Source of the DNA: Methanosarcina barkeri str. Wiesmoor
Lineage (GTDB): Archaea; Halobacteriota; Methanosarcinia; Methanosarcinales; Methanosarcinaceae
Length of the DNA: 64,000 nucleotides
Direction of reading: 5' to 3'
NCBI RefSeq assembly: GCF_000969985.1
Contig: NZ_CP009526.1
Span: 744,001-808,000 of the forward strand
The notes beneath the pieces were generated by a model that had not been told where the DNA came from, made no database searches, and saw only the letters and a program-made list of their open reading frames with translations. Within the stretch, counting starts at the first letter, position 1, and every line of letters begins with the position of its first letter. The position numbers and the translations under genes are program-made. Shown here piece by piece: positions 52,473 to 61,390 of the stretch.

Positions 52473-53018
52473 TTACTCACTATAAATTCCGCTTATTAGT
52501 GTGTCATAAACTGATTCAATATTTACTGAATGTAAACTGAGTACACTGTCATTGTTAATCTTGATACACAATTCTTTCCTTTCTTTTTCCTCGTGAACGT
52601 TTGTGACGAGAACGACTTCCTGTATGTCTTTTAGTTCGACTTCGTACAATATCTTATTAAAGGCCTTGTGCCAGCCAAAAATTCTGCGATTTGTCAAATA
52701 CATATAACCGTAATTCCAGGCTTTCCCCTGGTTCTGAGAATAGGAACCAAAAAAATTCATCTTCGTTTCTTCCTCCGCCATAAGAGTTGGCGAAGTCACT
52801 CTATGTTCGAGTGCCCAGGCTCTTGTACTCTGGTCAAACTGCTCAAATACGCCGTATTCAAGCATTGTTTCAATTCCAGCAGCTAATAGTTTGAGACTCA
52901 AACCTATCAGAGGCACACCTGCAACTGTGATCAGAACATCGGCGTTTAGAACGAGTCCTTTGTTAAGTAACCTATCCAGAAGTTCCACTAAGGAATCTTG
53001 TTCACGTTCCGGCATCAT
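52473..53018 (-). CDS. GvpA/M-type protein fused to a GRAM/PH-like domain
   Basis: 181 residues. Residues 8-75 are of the GvpA/J/M family: SLVELLDRLLNKGLVLNADVLITVAGVPLIGLSLKLLAAGIETMLEYG, the same order as GvpA. Residues about 95-181 are a separate domain with YMYLTNRRIFGWHK, the hallmark strand-turn of GRAM or bacterial PH-like domains, then beta strands. A lone GvpM/J is about 80-110 residues, so the second half is an addition. Its ATG overlaps the gvpL stop (ATGA, 53015-53018). It is the last gene of the cluster and may be a minor shell or nucleation protein that also binds a lipid or another Gvp; that is inference. Confidence 0.78.
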   Translation of the reverse strand: MMPEREQDSLVELLDRLLNKGLVLNADVLITVAGVPLIGLSLKLLAAGIETMLEYGVFEQFDQSTRAWALEHRVTSPTLMAEEETKMNFFGSYSQNQGKAWNYGYMYLTNRRIFGWHKAFNKILYEVELKDIQEVVLVTNVHEEKERKELCIKINNDSVLSLHSVNIESVYDTLISGIYSE

Positions 53019-53818
53019 GTATGTTCGAAATCCTTTTTGAGATCAATAAAGCTATAAGGTGCCCAGGGTCCTGTAAACCTGACTGCAAAACCTTCACGTT
53101 CATTTATTTGTTCAAGAACATTCCCTAAATTTTCAACATTTTCATTAGATACAAGGCAGGAAAGTGTAATCACAGATTTTTTGCCCTTGAATTTCTCTGG
53201 AACATTGGATTTTTTTTCTTCAGGAACCATCTCTTTTACATTCTCGTGAATAGCTCTCCCAAATTCTGCCCCAAGTTTTGAAAGTTCCTTTGTTATTGCT
53301 TGATCTCGCCGAATATCAAACTGTTTCTGAAGAATGTAGCCTTTTCCTTTTGACATTCCTTGAATTTTTGCATTCAATGCTTGAAGTTCATGACTGTCTT
53401 TGAGAACCTTTTCAGCAAGAATTTTCGGATCATAAAAAATTTGGACTAAATACTCTGCAGTATCATTTAATTTCTCAAGTTCAGTTTTAAAGGGTTCATA
53501 GTTTTTCTGCAGCCAGGATCTTATGGTTTCGTCATTTCCAAGTGCAACACACCCAAAAGAAAATGGAAGTAATGTACCAAATTTTTCAGTCATCTTGTCG
53601 ATAGCATAGTTATGAGTGAATACCCATTCTTTTGCCTGCTGTTCGTCCTTTGCTGGTTCAGGTTTCTTTTCTGAGAAATGGACAGCTGCAGCAATGTCTT
53701 TATAAATAATTGTATACACAGGATTGTCGTTAATCCCAATCGTTCCCAGGTTCTGTTCAGTAGCTGTATTGAGAATTGCGTAAACATAAAGGCAGTTCTC
53801 CTGCTCTGTTTCGTTCAT
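53015..53818 (-). CDS. gvpL: gas vesicle protein GvpL (GvpF/L family)
   Basis: About 267 residues. GvpF/L motifs are seen: CLYVYAILNT at the start, TLLPFSFGCVALGNDE in the middle (the LPxxFG-type segment), and FAVRFTGPWAPYSFIDL near the end. These proteins are minor parts or assembly factors that bind GvpA. The ATG at 53818 is preferred over a TTG six codons earlier; the longer form overlaps the broken gvpK at 53757-53973. The 3' end overlaps the GvpA/M-GRAM gene. Confidence 0.9.
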   Translation of the reverse strand: MNETEQENCLYVYAILNTATEQNLGTIGINDNPVYTIIYKDIAAAVHFSEKKPEPAKDEQQAKEWVFTHNYAIDKMTEKFGTLLPFSFGCVALGNDETIRSWLQKNYEPFKTELEKLNDTAEYLVQIFYDPKILAEKVLKDSHELQALNAKIQGMSKGKGYILQKQFDIRRDQAITKELSKLGAEFGRAIHENVKEMVPEEKKSNVPEKFKGKKSVITLSCLVSNENVENLGNVLEQINEREGFAVRFTGPWAPYSFIDLKKDFEHT

Positions 53819-53973
53819 TTTTATCGGCTTCCCCAATCCACCCTATTGGATTTATAAATTTAACAATTACCTCGTCTACTACCTTATCAAGTTCGTCTCT
53901 CATAGAATAAACACAATGTTCAAGTTCATTGTCAGTTTTTATCACCCTCAAATACTTCGTTCAGATCCGAATT
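53757..53973 (-). pseudogene. truncated, frameshifted second gvpK
   Basis: The minus strand encodes DNELEHCVYSMRDELDKVVDE and on, a match to residues about 70-123 of the intact GvpK (54003-54374), ending in NSQYSY against DSQYSH. Just upstream, one frame off, is SDLNEVFE, matching SDLHEALE of GvpK. The part before that is lost behind a TAA. So this is the 3' half of a duplicated gvpK with one frameshift, overlapping the start of gvpL. Confidence 0.8.
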
Positions 53974-54002
53974 GTATTAATTCCACTTGGTTCCAGGCTT
54001 TA

Positions 54003-54374
54003 TTAGTGGCTGTATTGAGAATCGAGTACAGGTAAAGTGTGTTCTTCGTCGTTTAGTTCGCCTTTTTTGACTTCTTCAGCCCACCATCTCGGGTTTAAGA
54101 ATTTATCGACTACATCATCTACAACTTGATCAAGTCCTTCTCGTACAGAAGCAACACAGTTTTCAAGTGCATTATCTTCTTTTATTCTCTCAAGTGCTTC
54201 ATGCAGGTCCGAAAGAGCCTCTCCTAGCCTTTCAATCTCTTCATCGCTCAAAGATTCATTTTCTATTCTCAATAATGCTTGTCTTTCAAGTAAGTCCTGA
54301 ATAATCTCGACAAGAGCTACAACAAGGCCCAATAATCCTTTCTTTAAATTGTCTTCATCAATTGTGATCGTCAT
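54003..54374 (-). CDS. gvpK: gas vesicle protein GvpK
   Basis: 123 residues of the GvpK family: the N-terminal helix IDEDNLKKGLLGLVVALVEII, then QDLLERQALLRIENESLSDEEIERLG, the conserved core, and a C-terminal helix. GvpK is an essential minor gas-vesicle protein of uncertain mechanism. The gene begins inside gvpH (overlap 54358-54374) and is followed by its own truncated copy. Confidence 0.92.
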   Translation of the reverse strand: MTITIDEDNLKKGLLGLVVALVEIIQDLLERQALLRIENESLSDEEIERLGEALSDLHEALERIKEDNALENCVASVREGLDQVVDDVVDKFLNPRWWAEEVKKGELNDEEHTLPVLDSQYSH

Positions 54375-55047
54375 TGTTTTCCCTTTTTATCTTAAGCTGA
54401 AGTACCCCGTTTTTGTAGCTTTTCTCTTCGATAGATCCCGATTTACACGGCAACGATATTTTCTTACTATAGACACCGGCAGAAATATACAGAGTATCGC
54501 CTTGAATTTCTATGTTTATGTCTTTCTCTTCTACATCAGGAATTTGGGCTATTACATAAACAAAATCCTGTTTTTCAAATACATCAAAAATCGGTCCAGT
54601 TGGCTCTGGAGCTTCTACTGTTACGTTTTTTATATCTCTTGAAACTCTGCCTGTAATTTTAGAAGAGTCATTTCTGGAAGACATAGGTCTTATGGACAGT
54701 CCATAGCTCACTACTGGCTTGCTGCTCCAGCCAGTTTCGAGCCTGTGCTTTATTTCCATATCTGTTTCAGCAATTCTCTGTCTGAATTCTGGGGAACTAT
54801 TTTCAAGAATCTTTACGATTTTCCCGAAGCCTGGAATTGATCCCACGATATCTCCTACAAAGCTGGGATGTTCGTTATCTGTAGCTTTGTTCTCTTTTTC
54901 TCCAAGCTTCTGTTCAAGTTCTTTAATTCTATTCCCCAGATCCTGGATTTTAGTTTCCAGGTCTTCAGCTTTCATATCACTTTTTGTTTCCTTCTCATCG
55001 TTATTTGTTTCCTTCTCACCGTTGTCCTTTTTATCACCATTACACAT
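54358..55047 (-). CDS. gvpH: Hsp20-like gas vesicle protein GvpH
   Basis: 229 residues. A charged N-terminus and a coiled coil (about 27-52, KIQDLGNRIKELEQKL) precede a middle GvpH-like segment (PSFVGDIVGSIPGFGKIV) and a C-terminal alpha-crystallin/Hsp20 domain (about 150-225: DVFEKQDFVYVIAQIPDV, then NIEIQGDTLYISAG, ending GVLQLKIKR). GvpH is a chaperone-like factor that keeps GvpA or GvpM soluble. GGGAGAG about 10 nt upstream supports the ATG. The 3' end overlaps gvpK by 17 bases. Confidence 0.88.
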   Translation of the reverse strand: MCNGDKKDNGEKETNNDEKETKSDMKAEDLETKIQDLGNRIKELEQKLGEKENKATDNEHPSFVGDIVGSIPGFGKIVKILENSSPEFRQRIAETDMEIKHRLETGWSSKPVVSYGLSIRPMSSRNDSSKITGRVSRDIKNVTVEAPEPTGPIFDVFEKQDFVYVIAQIPDVEEKDINIEIQGDTLYISAGVYSKKISLPCKSGSIEEKSYKNGVLQLKIKRENNDDHN

Positions 55048-55129
55048 TGATAGATCTCTCCCAGTTACTCGAATTATAATTCTTTAAGGAAAGTGAGCTG
55101 TATAAAACACTAAACTGGCAGCAATGTCT

Positions 55130-55546
55130 CTACTGTTGATTTTCTTCCTCAAGTGTGGAGTTTCTGTCTTGATCAATCTCGATGTAACTTGCAGGGATTA
55201 TTGCCCGTTTTTTCTTAGAAAGTGGACTTGTCCATCCGCAAATTGGGCATCCTTTCTCGATTAAAAGCTTCTCCTCCCTTCGATTTCCACATTCCGGACA
55301 GTAAGCATAGGCTTCGTGTACTTTCTCCCATGCCGGGGTATCAATATTTGTTCCCGAAGGGAACTCGAGACCATATTTTGCTGCAGTTTCAAAGGATGCC
55401 AGAGTAGCTGTAATTTTAACTCCAAGAAGCTCAGTTCCCGCGATAGATACTGAAATATCAGCGTTCAGTACAAGTCCTTTATCCAGAATCCTATCTATTA
55501 CATCCGCAAGTCCGCCGGTTTCCCTGACAACACTTCCGTTGCTCAT
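55130..55546 (-). CDS. gvpJ: GvpJ-type GvpA paralogue with C-terminal zinc ribbon
   Basis: 138 residues from the ATG at 55546, 7 nt after GGAGGA; a longer frame to 55576 lacks a site. Residues 8-65 are GvpA-like: LADVIDRILDKGLVLNADISVSIAGTELLGVKI. From about 80 comes YCPECGNRREEKLLIEKGCPICGW, two CxxC knuckles of a zinc ribbon, then a basic KKKR stretch. GvpJ normally is GvpA-like plus a short tail and is needed for nucleation; the ribbon is an unusual addition that may bind protein or nucleic acid. It sits between the short GvpH-like ORF and gvpH. Confidence 0.82.
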   Translation of the reverse strand: MSNGSVVRETGGLADVIDRILDKGLVLNADISVSIAGTELLGVKITATLASFETAAKYGLEFPSGTNIDTPAWEKVHEAYAYCPECGNRREEKLLIEKGCPICGWTSPLSKKKRAIIPASYIEIDQDRNSTLEEENQQ

Positions 55547-55576
55547 ATTCTTCCTCCATTCATAGTATTTCCTCAA

Positions 55577-55841: not shown

Positions 55842-56150
55842 TTATTTTCTTTTTTTTAAGTGGCGTGTTACAGGGCTCTTGATCAAAAGTTTAGGGTAAA
55901 GTTTTAGAGTGCGGAAGTCACTGGGTTTTGTATCAATCGTGATATTGTAACTATACTCAGCTTTCGAGCTAAAAGGCCCATTAGTTTTGCCTGATCCGGA
56001 TTTTTGATTAATTTTTTGATTATCCATTTCCTCAAGTAGTTTTAGAAAATTGTATAATCCGGAAGGTTTTTCTTCGGCTTTTATCGATTTTGAATTCTCT
56101 TTTTCTTTTCCATGCGATAGTTTATCAGGACAAGATGTCGGTTCTGACAT
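55842..56150 (-). CDS. short GvpH-like protein, possibly truncated
   Basis: About 102 residues from the ATG at 56150, which lies within the end of gvpG (overlap 56125-56150); a frame to 56180 is possible. The part SGLYNFLKLLEEMDNQ followed by AEYSYNITID recalls the N-terminal half of GvpH/Hsp20-type proteins of other gas-vesicle clusters. The C-terminal Hsp20 domain is missing: the frame ends in KSPVTRHLKKRK next to an eight-A run where one base change would let it run on about ten codons. It could be a broken GvpH or a distinct GvpI-like basic protein. Confidence 0.5.
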   Translation of the reverse strand: MSEPTSCPDKLSHGKEKENSKSIKAEEKPSGLYNFLKLLEEMDNQKINQKSGSGKTNGPFSSKAEYSYNITIDTKPSDFRTLKLYPKLLIKSPVTRHLKKRK

Positions 56151-56406
56151 TGAGATTCGTCTCCAGAACTCTTTCTGCAAATTTTAGTTGTCTCATAAGA
56201 TCGGTTTTCCTTTCATCATATTCTTCTTTTGAGAGCTCGTCAAACTCGTAGAGCATTTGGTTTTCTTTGATCTTGTTTTTAATTTTATCAACATTGTACA
56301 ATTCTTTATAAGCAAAGTCCTTTATTATTTCAATGTTTGAAATAAGATCGAGTCCAGGGATTTCAATTCCTAACATCCTTAAAAAAAGATCATCAAAGAA
56401 AAACAT
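56125..56406 (-). CDS. gvpG: gas vesicle protein GvpG
   Basis: 93 residues, right size for GvpG. The diagnostic opening MFFFDDLFLRMLGIEIPGLD matches the family, followed by IIKDFAYKELYNVDKIK and long charged helices. GvpG is a small helical assembly protein usually encoded directly after gvpF, as here: its ATG shares one base with the gvpF stop (TAATG at 56406). Translational coupling is likely. Confidence 0.92.
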   Translation of the reverse strand: MFFFDDLFLRMLGIEIPGLDLISNIEIIKDFAYKELYNVDKIKNKIKENQMLYEFDELSKEEYDERKTDLMRQLKFAERVLETNLNVRTDILS

Positions 56407-57065
56407 TACCTGAAACCACCCTTTTTATTAGATAAAATATGTATATCTACAAAGTTATAGGGAGGCCAGGGCCCACTATATTGAAATTTATACTCAGGAT
56501 ATTTTAGTTTAAGCTTTTCAACTTCATCTGAAAAATCCTGAATTTTTTCCTTATCTACAAGATAGGAAGTATTCATCAAAAGACGGGAACTGAAAAGGTT
56601 AAGGTCCTTCAAATGAGAAGCGATTTCCCCAAGCCTTTCGATTGATTCGGCCTTACATTGTTCCATTTTTTGATTGTCTATTTTAGTGTCTTTTGGCAAA
56701 AGAATTTTTATCCCGAGTTCAACTTTATTATCCACGATTGTAATGGCTTTTTTAATAGCTTTTTTTCCGGCCCGCATGGATACTTCGATCAATTTCTTGT
56801 TTTTAAAAACCATTCCATACGCTACCGGAATAATACTACATTGTTTCATTACTTCATTGACAACATTTTGATGAACATTTATTTCCTCTTCATTATCAAT
56901 CTCGTATTTTTTGAAGGGTTCATTGCTCACGACAGGACAAAAATCATTGCAAGCCAGTGTGAATACCTCATGTCCTTGAAAACCTATATTACCAAAATTT
57001 ATAGCTTCCTCTGGGGATTTGATTATGCAATAGACATATTTACTATTTTCAGGAGCTGTCTTCAT
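56406..57065 (-). CDS. gvpF: gas vesicle protein GvpF
   Basis: 219 residues, the usual length of GvpF. KYVYCIIKSPEE starts the ferredoxin-like N-terminal domain; SIIPVAYGMVFKNKK is the conserved middle; FQYSGPWPPYNFVDI the C-terminal motif shared with GvpL at 53015. GvpF is a minor shell protein or assembly factor that contacts GvpA. AGGGAG 5-6 nt before the ATG is a good ribosome site. The start lies inside a possible small broken ORF (57049-57205). Confidence 0.92.
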   Translation of the reverse strand: MKTAPENSKYVYCIIKSPEEAINFGNIGFQGHEVFTLACNDFCPVVSNEPFKKYEIDNEEEINVHQNVVNEVMKQCSIIPVAYGMVFKNKKLIEVSMRAGKKAIKKAITIVDNKVELGIKILLPKDTKIDNQKMEQCKAESIERLGEIASHLKDLNLFSSRLLMNTSYLVDKEKIQDFSDEVEKLKLKYPEYKFQYSGPWPPYNFVDIHILSNKKGGFR

Positions 57066-57451: not shown

Positions 57452-57751
57452 TTAGTTATCATCTTGTGTAAACATGTCAGATCTGCGCCGCATCCCTATT
57501 TTATTATAATCTATTATGTCCATATTTGAGTTAAGTTTCATTTCATAAATGCTCAGTATATCCTGTGAGTCGGGAATTGATTTTCGTTCAAGGACCTCAA
57601 CAAGGAGTTTAAGTATACCATCCTCTCTGGACATACTTACAACCCCCTCAGCTTTCTTTCTAGTGATACCTTCTATCATTAATGTTGCTTTATTAAGATC
57701 TTCAATTAGTGAACTTATTTTAATTCCATCTTCCTTTACATTAGCGTTCAT
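57452..57751 (-). CDS. gvpO: gas vesicle protein GvpO
   Basis: About 99 residues from the ATG at 57751, preceded by AAGGAGAGG; an upstream ATG at 57796 adds 15 residues and overlaps the stop of the small frame at 57787-57976. Family features: an N-terminal helix, the conserved centre EGVVSMSREDGILKLLVEVLERKSIPD, and LSIYEMKLNSNMDIIDYNKI, the strand region typical of GvpO, ending in basic residues (GMRRRSD). GvpO is essential for gas vesicles in haloarchaea and encoded after gvpN, as here. Confidence 0.88.
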   Translation of the reverse strand: MNANVKEDGIKISSLIEDLNKATLMIEGITRKKAEGVVSMSREDGILKLLVEVLERKSIPDSQDILSIYEMKLNSNMDIIDYNKIGMRRRSDMFTQDDN

Positions 57752-57786
57752 TTCCTCTCCTTTATCTCTAATTTTTTTTCCCCTGT

Positions 57787-57976
57787 TTACTTCCATACCA
57801 ATTCTCCCATACTTTTTCTGAGTCTTTTGTCCCTGAATTCAGGATGTGCCTGTATTTTTCTAAGCCTCCGGCTCTTGATTTTTAAGTATGCCTCTTTTAT
57901 TTCGTCGAATACCCGTTAGCTTACTGCGGATGCGCCAGCACAGTTTTGATTGTTCCTGCAAGTGTTTTGAAAACAT
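57787..57976 (-). pseudogene. small basic ORF between gvpN and gvpO with one frameshift
   Basis: ATG at 57976 follows the gvpN stop (TAAATG) and reads MFSKHLQEQSKLCWRIRSKL. One base over, the frame continues VFDEIKEAYLKIKSRRLRKI, then QAHPEFRDKRLRK and ends at a TAA (57787-57789) overlapping the upstream gvpO ATG (57796). Dropping one G from the GGG near 57914 would give a single 62-residue, strongly basic helical protein that links gvpN and gvpO without gaps. I do not recognise it. The fit to both neighbours makes it likely to be, or have been, a real gene. Confidence 0.45.
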
Positions 57977-59290
57977 TTATGCAAGTTCTGAAACTGCTTT
58001 ATCTACGAGCTTCTCTGTCTTAATCACCGATGCCGAATCTTGCTTCTTATTATTACTCTCTGGGGCTGCTTTGCTTACAGTTTTTTCTGCCTTGACTACT
58101 GGTGTTGGATCTTGCTTCTTATTAATCGCAGGAGCTTTTTTACTTACAGTTTTTTCTGTCTTGACTACCGGTGCTGGATCTCGCTTCTTATTACTCTCCG
58201 GGGTCGTTTTATCTACGGGTTTCTCGGTCTTATGTATTTCAGCTTTGGAATTCTCTTTTTCAGAATTAAGTTCTAAAATAACTTCATTTACAAGCTTCTC
58301 TTTCTTAAGAAGTTCCGCATTGGAACTTGTTTTTGTTGCAATAACATCGACAAACAATTGATCAAAATAATCTTTTGTATTGCCGTTCAGTTTTTTCATA
58401 GCTTTTCCAACCATAATACCAGACCTGATTCCAGGTTTCTGGATATCATCAGTCTGATCCCTTATCTTCCTGATAACAGATACGATTTTTTCAGTCTCTT
58501 TCTCAGACAGACCTGTATGCTCTTTTACTATCTGAGCCTCGGTTTCAAAGCTATAATAGTCCATGTATATACCCACCATTCGATCCAGTAAAGCATCCTG
58601 AGGAACATGAACTCCTGCATATTCAATTGAATTACTTGTCAGAATTGCCCTGAAATCTGGATGCACTTTTATGTATTTTTCCCCACCAAACCTGGCTGGT
58701 AATTCAAGGATTCCTTCCTCAAAAACCGAAAGTAAAACATTGTTTGCAATTGGTTTTGCTCTGGAAAACTCATTATATATGAGGGTATATCCGTACTTAC
58801 ATGCAATAGCCAGAGGATTATCAATCCATTCGGGCTTTATAATATCCGAGCTTTTAAAAACGTTATGAATATAATTATCTCTTATCGATTCCTGCTTGAT
58901 TTGAGCATATCCACCTATGAGATCCTTTGTTGTAAGTGACTCATCCCCGTTAATCCATATAACAGGGCGTCCGAGTTCTTTTGCAATATGTACGGCAAGG
59001 CTTGTTTTTCCACAGCCTGTAGGGCCAATTAAATGCACGGGATATCCAACTTTTATCCACAATTTTATTCTTTCACTTAATTTCTGGATTTCAGTATTAT
59101 TTATAAAATATTCCATTTCAGGAACAAGATACTTTTTTTCTTCAGAGCAGTTTTTCAAATCTACACTGGATGAAAGTGGTTCCTTTATAGGTTTCAGATC
59201 CTCATTGTTTGATTCCTGTTTTGTCTCCTCCAAGGTTTTGTGAATAGGTTTACCCCTTACTACTCTCTGGTGCGTTGCTTTATATTTCAT
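57977..59290 (-). CDS. gvpN: gas vesicle AAA+ ATPase GvpN, extended
   Basis: 437 residues against about 300-350 in relatives. Walker A GPTGCGKT is at 89-96; VIWINGDESLTTKDLIGG follows; Walker B-like TLIYNEFSRAKP and the sensor LTSNSIEYAG identify a MoxR/GvpN-type AAA+ protein. GvpN is needed for gas vesicles to reach full size. Residues about 350-437 are a lineage-specific tail of four 21-24 residue repeats (PVVKTEKTVSKKAPAINKKQ is one). A minus-strand TATA-like GATATAAAAC at 59331-59340 would serve as its promoter. Confidence 0.92.
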   Translation of the reverse strand: MKYKATHQRVVRGKPIHKTLEETKQESNNEDLKPIKEPLSSSVDLKNCSEEKKYLVPEMEYFINNTEIQKLSERIKLWIKVGYPVHLIGPTGCGKTSLAVHIAKELGRPVIWINGDESLTTKDLIGGYAQIKQESIRDNYIHNVFKSSDIIKPEWIDNPLAIACKYGYTLIYNEFSRAKPIANNVLLSVFEEGILELPARFGGEKYIKVHPDFRAILTSNSIEYAGVHVPQDALLDRMVGIYMDYYSFETEAQIVKEHTGLSEKETEKIVSVIRKIRDQTDDIQKPGIRSGIMVGKAMKKLNGNTKDYFDQLFVDVIATKTSSNAELLKKEKLVNEVILELNSEKENSKAEIHKTEKPVDKTTPESNKKRDPAPVVKTEKTVSKKAPAINKKQDPTPVVKAEKTVSKAAPESNNKKQDSASVIKTEKLVDKAVSELA

Positions 59291-59963: not shown

Positions 59964-60275
59964 TTATCCATAGAATTCTTTGGTATAAAGTTCGATTTCA
60001 TTCTGGAGTCCTTTTATCTCGGATTCCAAATTATGAACTTCATCTCTCATCCAGTTTGATTTCTGCTCAAAAATTTTAATTTCTTCATCGATTTCTTTCT
60101 TGATCTCTGTAACTCCAGTTTGAATCTGTACGACTCCAGTTTGGAACTGAATGGCTTCTTCCTTACATTCCGATTGAAGTTGCATTACTGAAGAATTAAT
60201 CTTTGAGACTGCATCTCTTTGTTCCAGTGCCTTAGTACTTATATCCTTATTTAGATCCGCAACGCTCTTGTGCAT
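59964..60275 (-). CDS. coiled-coil protein in the gvpC position
   Basis: 103 residues, wholly alpha-helical with heptad spacing and no membrane part. Internal repetition is visible: AIQFQTGVVQIQTGVTEIKKEID, with QTGV twice seven residues apart, then MRDEVHNLESEIKGLQNEIEL. The gene lies between the gvpA copies and gvpN, the position of gvpC in haloarchaea and cyanobacteria. GvpC is a repetitive helical protein that binds the outside of the shell and stiffens it, so this is a candidate functional equivalent; there is no clear sequence similarity to known GvpC by eye. The start ATG at 60275 has AAAGGAG 5-8 nt upstream. Confidence 0.6.
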   Translation of the reverse strand: MHKSVADLNKDISTKALEQRDAVSKINSSVMQLQSECKEEAIQFQTGVVQIQTGVTEIKKEIDEEIKIFEQKSNWMRDEVHNLESEIKGLQNEIELYTKEFYG

Positions 60276-60631
60276 GTTTTCGACTCCTTTTTTTATACAT
60301 ATCGGTTTCTGGCTTATTTTTGAAAAAATACAGAAATGCTTTTATTATGTATGATTTATACATACTATTGGGCCAGTTCCAAAATCTAGTGATTTTTAAT
60401 TTTGTGTTCATCACTAGACTTTGGAACTGAGTTGTAATATTCCATGTGTTTTATGAACAAACTGTATCAAAATCGCATTTAATTTTATTATTGGAATAAA
60501 GCATTCTACTACAAGGTTAATTTATAAATAAAATTTAGAGTAATTTTTTTCTGAGTTTAATGTTAACAATGCTCATTATCCAACTCTCGAAATAGGTCGA
60601 TTTTTGATACAATCTTTTCATTTTTTAGAAA
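60276..60631. other. gap between gvpA copies and the coiled-coil gene
   Basis: 356 bases, AT-rich, no gene. It holds the strong inverted repeat at 60374-60429. Confidence 0.7.
60374..60429 (-). terminator. strong hairpin downstream of the gvpA array
   Basis: The arms CAGTTCCAAAATCTAGTGA (60374-60392) and TCACTAGACTTTGGAACTG (60411-60429) are complementary at 18 of 19 positions around an 18-nt loop. It lies 200 bases after the last gvpA and 100 before the next gene. It could terminate or stabilise the gvpA message, giving far more GvpA than downstream proteins; alternatively it is a small inverted-repeat element. Confidence 0.6.
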
Positions 60632-60862
60632 TTATGCTGCAATTGCTGGTTTTTCCTCTCTTGCAGCAATTTCGATTTTTGTAATCTCTTCTGCATAGTG
60701 CAGGAATGTATCAACAGATGCGACAACAACTCTTGCTTCAATGGCCAGTATTTCAATGCCAACAAGCGAGACTCTTGCCCATGTGTCAACCACTATGCCT
60801 TTGTCGAGAATTCTGTCAAGCACTTCTGCTAGACTGGAACTGTCTGGACTCTGTGAAACCAT
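60632..60862 (-). CDS. gvpA: major gas vesicle protein GvpA, copy 3
   Basis: 76 residues, the standard Gvp[42 protein letters not shown] and YAEEI follow in order, the amphipathic beta-hairpin core and flanking helices of the shell subunit. The protein is identical in all three copies; this DNA copy differs at a few silent sites (for example GGTTTC for GGTATC at codons 2-3). The leader GTGATATAA before its ATG is a weaker ribosome site than that of copy 1. Confidence 0.96.
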
Positions 60863-60895
60863 TTATATCACGTTCAGTTTTTATTTTTTTAGAAA

Positions 60896-61126
60896 TTATG
60901 CTGCAATTGCTGGTTTTTCCTCTCTTGCAGCAATTTCGATTTTTGTAATCTCTTCTGCATAGTGCAGGAATGTATCAACAGATGCGACAACAACTCTTGC
61001 TTCAATGGCCAGTATTTCAATGCCAACAAGCGAGACTCTTGCCCATGTGTCAACCACTATGCCTTTGTCGAGAATTCTGTCAAGCACTTCTGCTAGACTT
61101 GAACTGTCTGGACTCTGTGATACCAT
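60896..61126 (-). CDS. gvpA: major gas vesicle protein GvpA, copy 2
   Basis: 76 residues, same protein as copies 1 and 3. The ATG at 61126 is chosen so the protein matches the others; the frame is open three codons further. It starts 33 bases after copy 1 ends and stops 33 bases before copy 3, so the three form a perfect 264-bp tandem array. GTGGT lies 5 nt upstream. Confidence 0.96.
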
Positions 61127-61159
61127 TTTTACCACTTTCAGTTTTTATTTTTTTAGAAA

Positions 61160-61390
61160 TTATGCTGCAATTGCTGGTTTTTCCTCTCTTGCAGCAATTT
61201 CGATTTTTGTAATCTCTTCTGCATAGTGCAGGAATGTGTCAACAGATGCGACAACAACTCTTGCTTCAATGGCCAGTATTTCAATGCCAACAAGCGAGAC
61301 TCTTGCCCATGTGTCAACCACTATGCCTTTGTCAAGAATTCTGTCAAGCACTTCTGCTAGACTTGAACTGTCTGGACTCTGTGATACCAT
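61160..61390 (-). CDS. gvpA: major gas vesicle protein GvpA, copy 1
   Basis: 76 residues, first in transcription order. GGTGAG six bases before the ATG is the best ribosome site of the three. GvpA polymerises into the ribbed, gas-permeable, protein-only shell. Upstream minus-strand TATA-like sequences at 61501-61510 and 61614-61628 are candidate promoters; both are followed by AGAGG, a shared TATAAAGAGG pattern. The three copies would raise the dose of this most abundant protein. Confidence 0.96.

Follow-up and report, generated by a model that had tools for sequence, protein, structure and literature searches.

Gas vesicle proteins in haloarchaea, cyanobacteria and methanogens

In Anabaena, GvpC sits on helix alpha-2 of GvpA and follows the rib, one 33-residue repeat (49.5 Å) corresponding to four GvpA subunits spaced at 12.1-12.7 Å (PMC9994262, PMC10185304). 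Methanogen clusters are described in the text of a 2022 review as being without gvpC, and the table of that review gives the Methanosarcina barkeri cluster as gvpAAA-NOFG-JHKLM, where a dash stands for unrelated genes (PMC9501494). A table of the gvp genes of Methanothrix thermoacetophila contains Mthe_0058 (gvpN) and Mthe_0060 (gvpA) but not Mthe_0059, which lies between them (PMC10470525).

A conserved gene lies between gvpA and gvpN

The window analysed here is a stretch of 64,000 nucleotides from M. barkeri str. Wiesmoor (NZ_CP009526.1, positions 744,001 to 808,000), and the positions given below are numbered within it. Its gvp cluster lies on the minus strand. Three tandem, near-identical gvpA genes (60632..61390, Pfam GvpA) are followed by an open reading frame that we call X (59964..60275). 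Directly downstream of X lies gvpN, encoding an AAA ATPase (57977..59290, TIGR02640 match above cut-off), followed by gvpO (57452..57796, Pfam GvpO), gvpF (56406..57065, Pfam GvpF/L) and gvpG (56125..56406, Pfam GvpG). The remainder of the cluster (52473..55576, also minus strand) comprises gvpJ-like, HSP20-like gvpH, gvpK, gvpL and gvpM-like genes, of which the gvpA-like ones were named by their order in the table of PMC9501494. This is the order printed in the review for M. barkeri, with X at the position of the first dash. The domain matches thus support the initial annotation in placing a 103-residue reading frame in the gvpC slot of a gvpA-X-gvpN-gvpO arrangement. The parallel that it drew to a cyanobacterial gvpA-gvpC-gvpN-gvpO order does not hold, since gvpO is absent there and Anabaena has gvpA..CNJK (PMC9501494).

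X begins with ATG and encodes 103 amino acids, predicted to form a single amphipathic helix that ends in LYTKEFYG. A Shine-Dalgarno-like AAGGAGT (60283..60289, minus strand) lies about 8 nt upstream of the start, and an AAGGAG-like site precedes the start in most of the seven Methanosarcina X genes. Compared with three Methanosarcina orthologues, X has a dN/dS of 0.22-0.29, and values of 0.19-0.31 among the short Methanosarcina copies indicate purifying selection. The orthologues differ in length by whole codons, with no frameshift or stop. X is therefore a real, constrained gene. It evolves faster than the other gvp genes, for which dN/dS is 0.08-0.18 (gvpF, gvpG, gvpN, gvpO and gvpA).

Several other genes of the neighbourhood were noted. 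The second dash of the published order corresponds to a gene of 102-112 amino acids (55842-56180, minus strand) that overlaps gvpG and carries the motif FLKLLEEM..KSG..KGP.SSKxEYSY. It is conserved in Methanosarcina gvp clusters and detectable in those of Methanoperedens and Methanothrix (best E 1e-12). No Pfam match was found for it, and weak matches in haloarchaeal clusters suggest that it may be a relative of gvpH/gvpI. Two GvpA-domain proteins (55130-55576 and 52473-53018, minus strand) have C-terminal extensions, one having a zinc-ribbon-like CPECGN...CPICGW and the other some 130 additional residues. The cluster here, like many methanogen and some DPANN gvp loci, is flanked by a gene for a PadR-family regulator (PF03551; 50975-51370, minus strand), a candidate gas-vesicle regulator in archaea that lack GvpD/GvpE.

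X is predicted to be a single repetitive helix

AlphaFold2 predicts X as one unbroken helix from residue 2 to 102 with a mean pLDDT of 95.1. The motif QTGV is found twice, at residues 45-48 and 52-55, with a spacing of seven residues, and self-similarity at a shift of 7 exceeded all of 200 composition shuffles, with further peaks at 25, 50 and 32. The helix is amphipathic at 3.55 residues per turn (hydrophobic moment 1.14, against a 95% level of 0.75 for shuffled sequences). The description of X as fully helical and internally repetitive is in agreement with these results, and the short Methanosarcina copies carry degenerate repeats only. The prediction for a homologue of the Methanothrix type shows a single helix of 205 residues, joined by a low-confidence linker to a small helical domain at the N-terminus. 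A Foldseek search of the PDB with the single-helix model of X gave no match. Anabaena GvpC was not found among the PDB chain sequences, which leaves no solved GvpC for comparison with X. Matches of X to FAM184, Prefoldin_2, SMC and similar entries of Pfam and NCBIfam (E 0.001-1) were rejected as sub-cut-off and typical of coiled-coil composition.

X belongs to a family of methane archaea

A GvpN search of 238 genomes of the class showed gvpN to be present in 34. Orthologues of X were observed in the same place in four further Methanosarcina genomes (G014, G020, G017, G002), of which G020 and G017 each have an additional gvp cluster with another, longer copy. The gvpA-X-gvpN slot thereby occurs in seven Methanosarcina loci, one of them cut by a contig end before gvpA. 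In Methanothrix/Methanotrichaceae- and Methanoperedens-type clusters, a helical protein is encoded on the same strand between the last gvpA and gvpN in every cluster whose contig extends over the slot, with the possible exception of L063; two loci whose slots are cut by contig ends (L069 and L072) stand outside this count. Family members named by the genome scan include Methanosarcina spelaei, Methanosarcina sp. ERenArc_MAG2, many Methanothrix and Candidatus Methanoperedens. X measures 71-103 amino acids in the five Methanosarcina genomes, and 157-370 in the second clusters and most relatives. The homologues of the Methanothrix/Methanotrichaceae/Methanoperedens type (180-370 amino acids) usually have an N-terminal SAP/Rho_N-like domain followed by helical repeats; PF07498, the corresponding Pfam entry, matched 9 of 24 members below the cut-off (best E 0.004). 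All 31 aligned family members terminate in FYG or FYYG.

A profile built from the non-Methanosarcina members only recovered X as the sole match in the genome of the window (E=1.7e-9). Each of the five Methanosarcina genomes with X gave a significant match (E 1.7e-9 to 2e-4), and none was obtained in seven Methanosarcina genomes lacking X, two of them with gvp clusters. X thus combines the three features by which we define a methane-archaeal GvpC-like family, namely the profile match, the slot and the C-terminal FY(Y)G, and is best regarded as one of the short representatives of this unannotated family. Mthe_0059 would be the place where the family predicts the gvpC of Methanothrix thermoacetophila. 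The protein had been proposed to be lineage-specific; the family, in contrast, is spread over the Methanosarcinia and extends to a further class of the phylum, where one genome (G283) carries gvpA, a 131-residue X ending in YINDFYYG, and gvpN. A plasmid search with X returned nothing. Two X-like contigs labelled Nitrospirae (L108) and Bacteroidales (L120) were rejected as bacterial members: they carry archaeal-type gvp clusters, with GvpN 56-60% identical to that of Methanosarcina, and look like archaeal contigs that reached these assemblies through binning errors.

Whether X is lacking from related gas-vacuolate Methanosarcina, a point raised in the initial annotation, has a mixed answer. Nine Methanosarcina genomes have gvpA-type genes; five carry X, and three of the four that lack it also lack gvpN. 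In the Methanosarcina clusters of G001, G009 and G023 (L010, L013 and L019), gvpO directly follows gvpA, with neither gvpN nor X. In G006 and G120 (L012 and L078), gvpN is present and X is truly absent from the slot. In many Natrialbales (L155-L179), too, the slot is without gvpC and gvpN comes immediately after gvpA. Four gvp-bearing Methanosarcina do without X and these Natrialbales show gvpA-gvpN; such dispensability is more in keeping with a protein that reinforces the shell than with one at the core of assembly. Genes for GvpN 49-58% identical to that of the window also occur in Woesearchaeota, Nanoarchaeota and Aenigmatarchaeota assemblies (L128, L130-L134, L137), with no gvpA just upstream.

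A C-terminal box shared by X and haloarchaeal GvpC

The codons of the C-terminal box LYTKEFYG occupy 59967..59990 (minus strand). In all 16 aligned haloarchaeal GvpC proteins, which are related and in part redundant, FYG occurs exactly once per protein, at the end of the repeat region, where 0.018 would be expected per protein. Variants of the box are FFG in Halorubrum vacuolatum (L136) and FTG in L148.

The hhalign comparison of Methanosarcina X with the repeat region of these 16 haloarchaeal proteins gave a score of 41.9 over 127 columns, the last of which place FYG on FYG, in a match that hangs mainly on the box. The reversed control scored 11.2. The maximum was 17.0 in 150 column shuffles and 33.7 in 150 heptad-block shuffles, which preserve coiled-coil character, so that no shuffle of either set reached the observed score. 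When the last eight columns were removed, the score fell to 20.6, which is within the null (6 of 100 shuffles as high). The long methanogen homologues alone scored 28.9 against haloarchaeal GvpC, not above the null (2 of 150 heptad-block shuffles). Because the score drops into the null without these eight columns, the sequence link between X and haloarchaeal GvpC is mainly the [aromatic]-x-x-x-F-Y-G box, and homology would rest on this short box together with position.

Pfam and HMMER searches gave a different picture. X had no match to PF05465, PF01304 or NCBIfam entries, and no 32-residue Halo_GVPC repeats above the Pfam cut-off. An HMMER profile of haloarchaeal GvpC found X in none of the methanogens tested. 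The acidic tail and C-terminal CxxC..H..H domain were both absent from the X sequence. The statement that X has no recognisable GvpC sequence is hence accurate for single-sequence and Pfam searches, but it overlooks the aromatic-x-x-x-FYG box that X shares with haloarchaeal GvpC. The profile check proposed alongside it was likewise divided, between a hhalign score above every shuffle on one side and, on the other, the HMMER result and the dependence on the last eight columns.

Proposed function and alternative explanations

By the features that define GvpC functionally, X has a gene between gvpA and gvpN and a predicted rod-like, amphipathic repeat helix. Our preferred reading is that X is quite probably the GvpC of methane-metabolising archaea, a rib-binding, shell-reinforcing helix that is unusually short in Methanosarcina. 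The proposal of a shell-stiffening GvpC analogue, shorn of its lineage-specific part, agrees with synteny, helical-repeat architecture, the shared C-terminal box and the shuffle-controlled profile match. A GvpC-like working of X is likely; that it binds vesicles and stiffens them, how it is oriented and what the box does are inferred. On the model of Anabaena GvpC, X would follow the outside of the GvpA rib, its hydrophobic stripe resting on helix alpha-2 of the GvpA subunits. At about 8.3 residues per GvpA, its 103 residues would cover about 12 subunits. The FYG end, as the least variable part, may anchor or cap the helix. By tying neighbouring GvpA subunits together, X could raise the collapse pressure and partly set vesicle width.

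The spacing of the repeats can be compared with that of GvpA. In Methanotrichaceae the repeat is 58 residues, or 87 Å, which equals seven GvpA at 12.4 Å, and the number of residues per subunit is that of Anabaena, where 33 residues go with four; by our own estimate such an integer match could come about by chance about 6% of the time and is suggestive only. The shifts of 25 and 50 residues in X correspond to three and six GvpA subunits. Periods of 18, 43 and 68 in longer relatives do not fit this spacing, and the fit is for that reason a prediction and not a proof.

That X is a convergent analogue of GvpC, an unrelated helix that has come to occupy its slot and do its work, seems unlikely to us: convergence would agree with the lack of HMMER-level similarity and the dependence of the profile match on the box, but box, slot and architecture coincide in 31 of 31 aligned members and in the 16 aligned haloarchaeal GvpC proteins. 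We give somewhat less credence still to a role outside the shell, in which X would help assembly, for instance as an adaptor whose FYG end links GvpA to the GvpN ATPase. Haloarchaeal GvpC itself binds GvpN and GvpO (PMC9501494), and X never occurs without gvpN in the gvp-bearing Methanosarcina genomes tested. The two genomes that have gvpN without X nevertheless indicate that GvpN can be independent of X, and long tandem helical arrays with a fixed 58-residue period suit a periodic surface better than an adaptor. It is very improbable that X in Methanosarcina is what decay has left of the longer GvpC of its relatives. Its short length and faster evolution would be expected of decay, yet dN/dS is 0.19-0.31, the reading frame has no frameshift or stop, the C-terminal box is intact and the Shine-Dalgarno-like site is kept; the distant form in G283 is likewise short.

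If X is GvpC, the shell pair of GvpA and GvpC would be common to haloarchaea and methane archaea, and the statement that methanogen vesicles are built without GvpC would fall. For the engineering of acoustic reporters, it would offer a reinforcing helix of very small size, along with naturally occurring variants of 71-370 residues for comparison. A broader and distinctly tentative extension, which we regard as possible at best, is that GvpC is an ancestral archaeal gas-vesicle component overlooked in methanogens, in which repeat length encodes rib pitch (33 per four, 58 per seven) and repeat number acts as a natural wall ruler; the Methanosarcina forms, at about 12 subunits, would then be the smallest natural GvpC.

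Comparison with known systems

The long homologues of Methanothrix, Methanotrichaceae and Candidatus Methanoperedens are orthologous to X as judged by the slot, a repeat core of the QIKENxxAxxKMxSG type and the C-terminal box. They differ from X in their greater length, in their multiple repeats, 58 or 32 residues long, and in the SAP/Rho_N-like domain, which is missing in Methanosarcina. Haloarchaeal GvpC (Halobacterium, Halorubrum, Haloquadratum; PF05465, Halo_GVPC) resembles X in the gvpA-gvpN slot, in its helical repeats and in the aromatic-x-x-x-FYG that closes them. It is larger, at 264-413 amino acids, and has the acidic tail and the CxxC..H..H domain that X lacks. X is also not strongly acidic, with a net charge of -7 compared to -53 for the repeat region of one haloarchaeal GvpC.

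Cyanobacterial GvpC (Anabaena, Nostoc; PF01304) is like X in its gvpA-gvpC-gvpN slot (L099) and its amphipathic helical repeats, and its C-terminal region contains ..SIFG. Its strict 33-residue repeat sets it apart, and neither such a repeat nor profile similarity to cyanobacterial GvpC was found in X. The haloarchaeal and cyanobacterial proteins, each accepted as GvpC on functional grounds, provide a yardstick: compared with each other, they showed no similarity (profile score 10.6, null mean 11.5). Two cyanobacterial sequences were used, one of them checked through a 249-bit match to PF01304. Judged by this yardstick, the tie between X and haloarchaeal GvpC appears no weaker than that between the haloarchaeal and cyanobacterial proteins.
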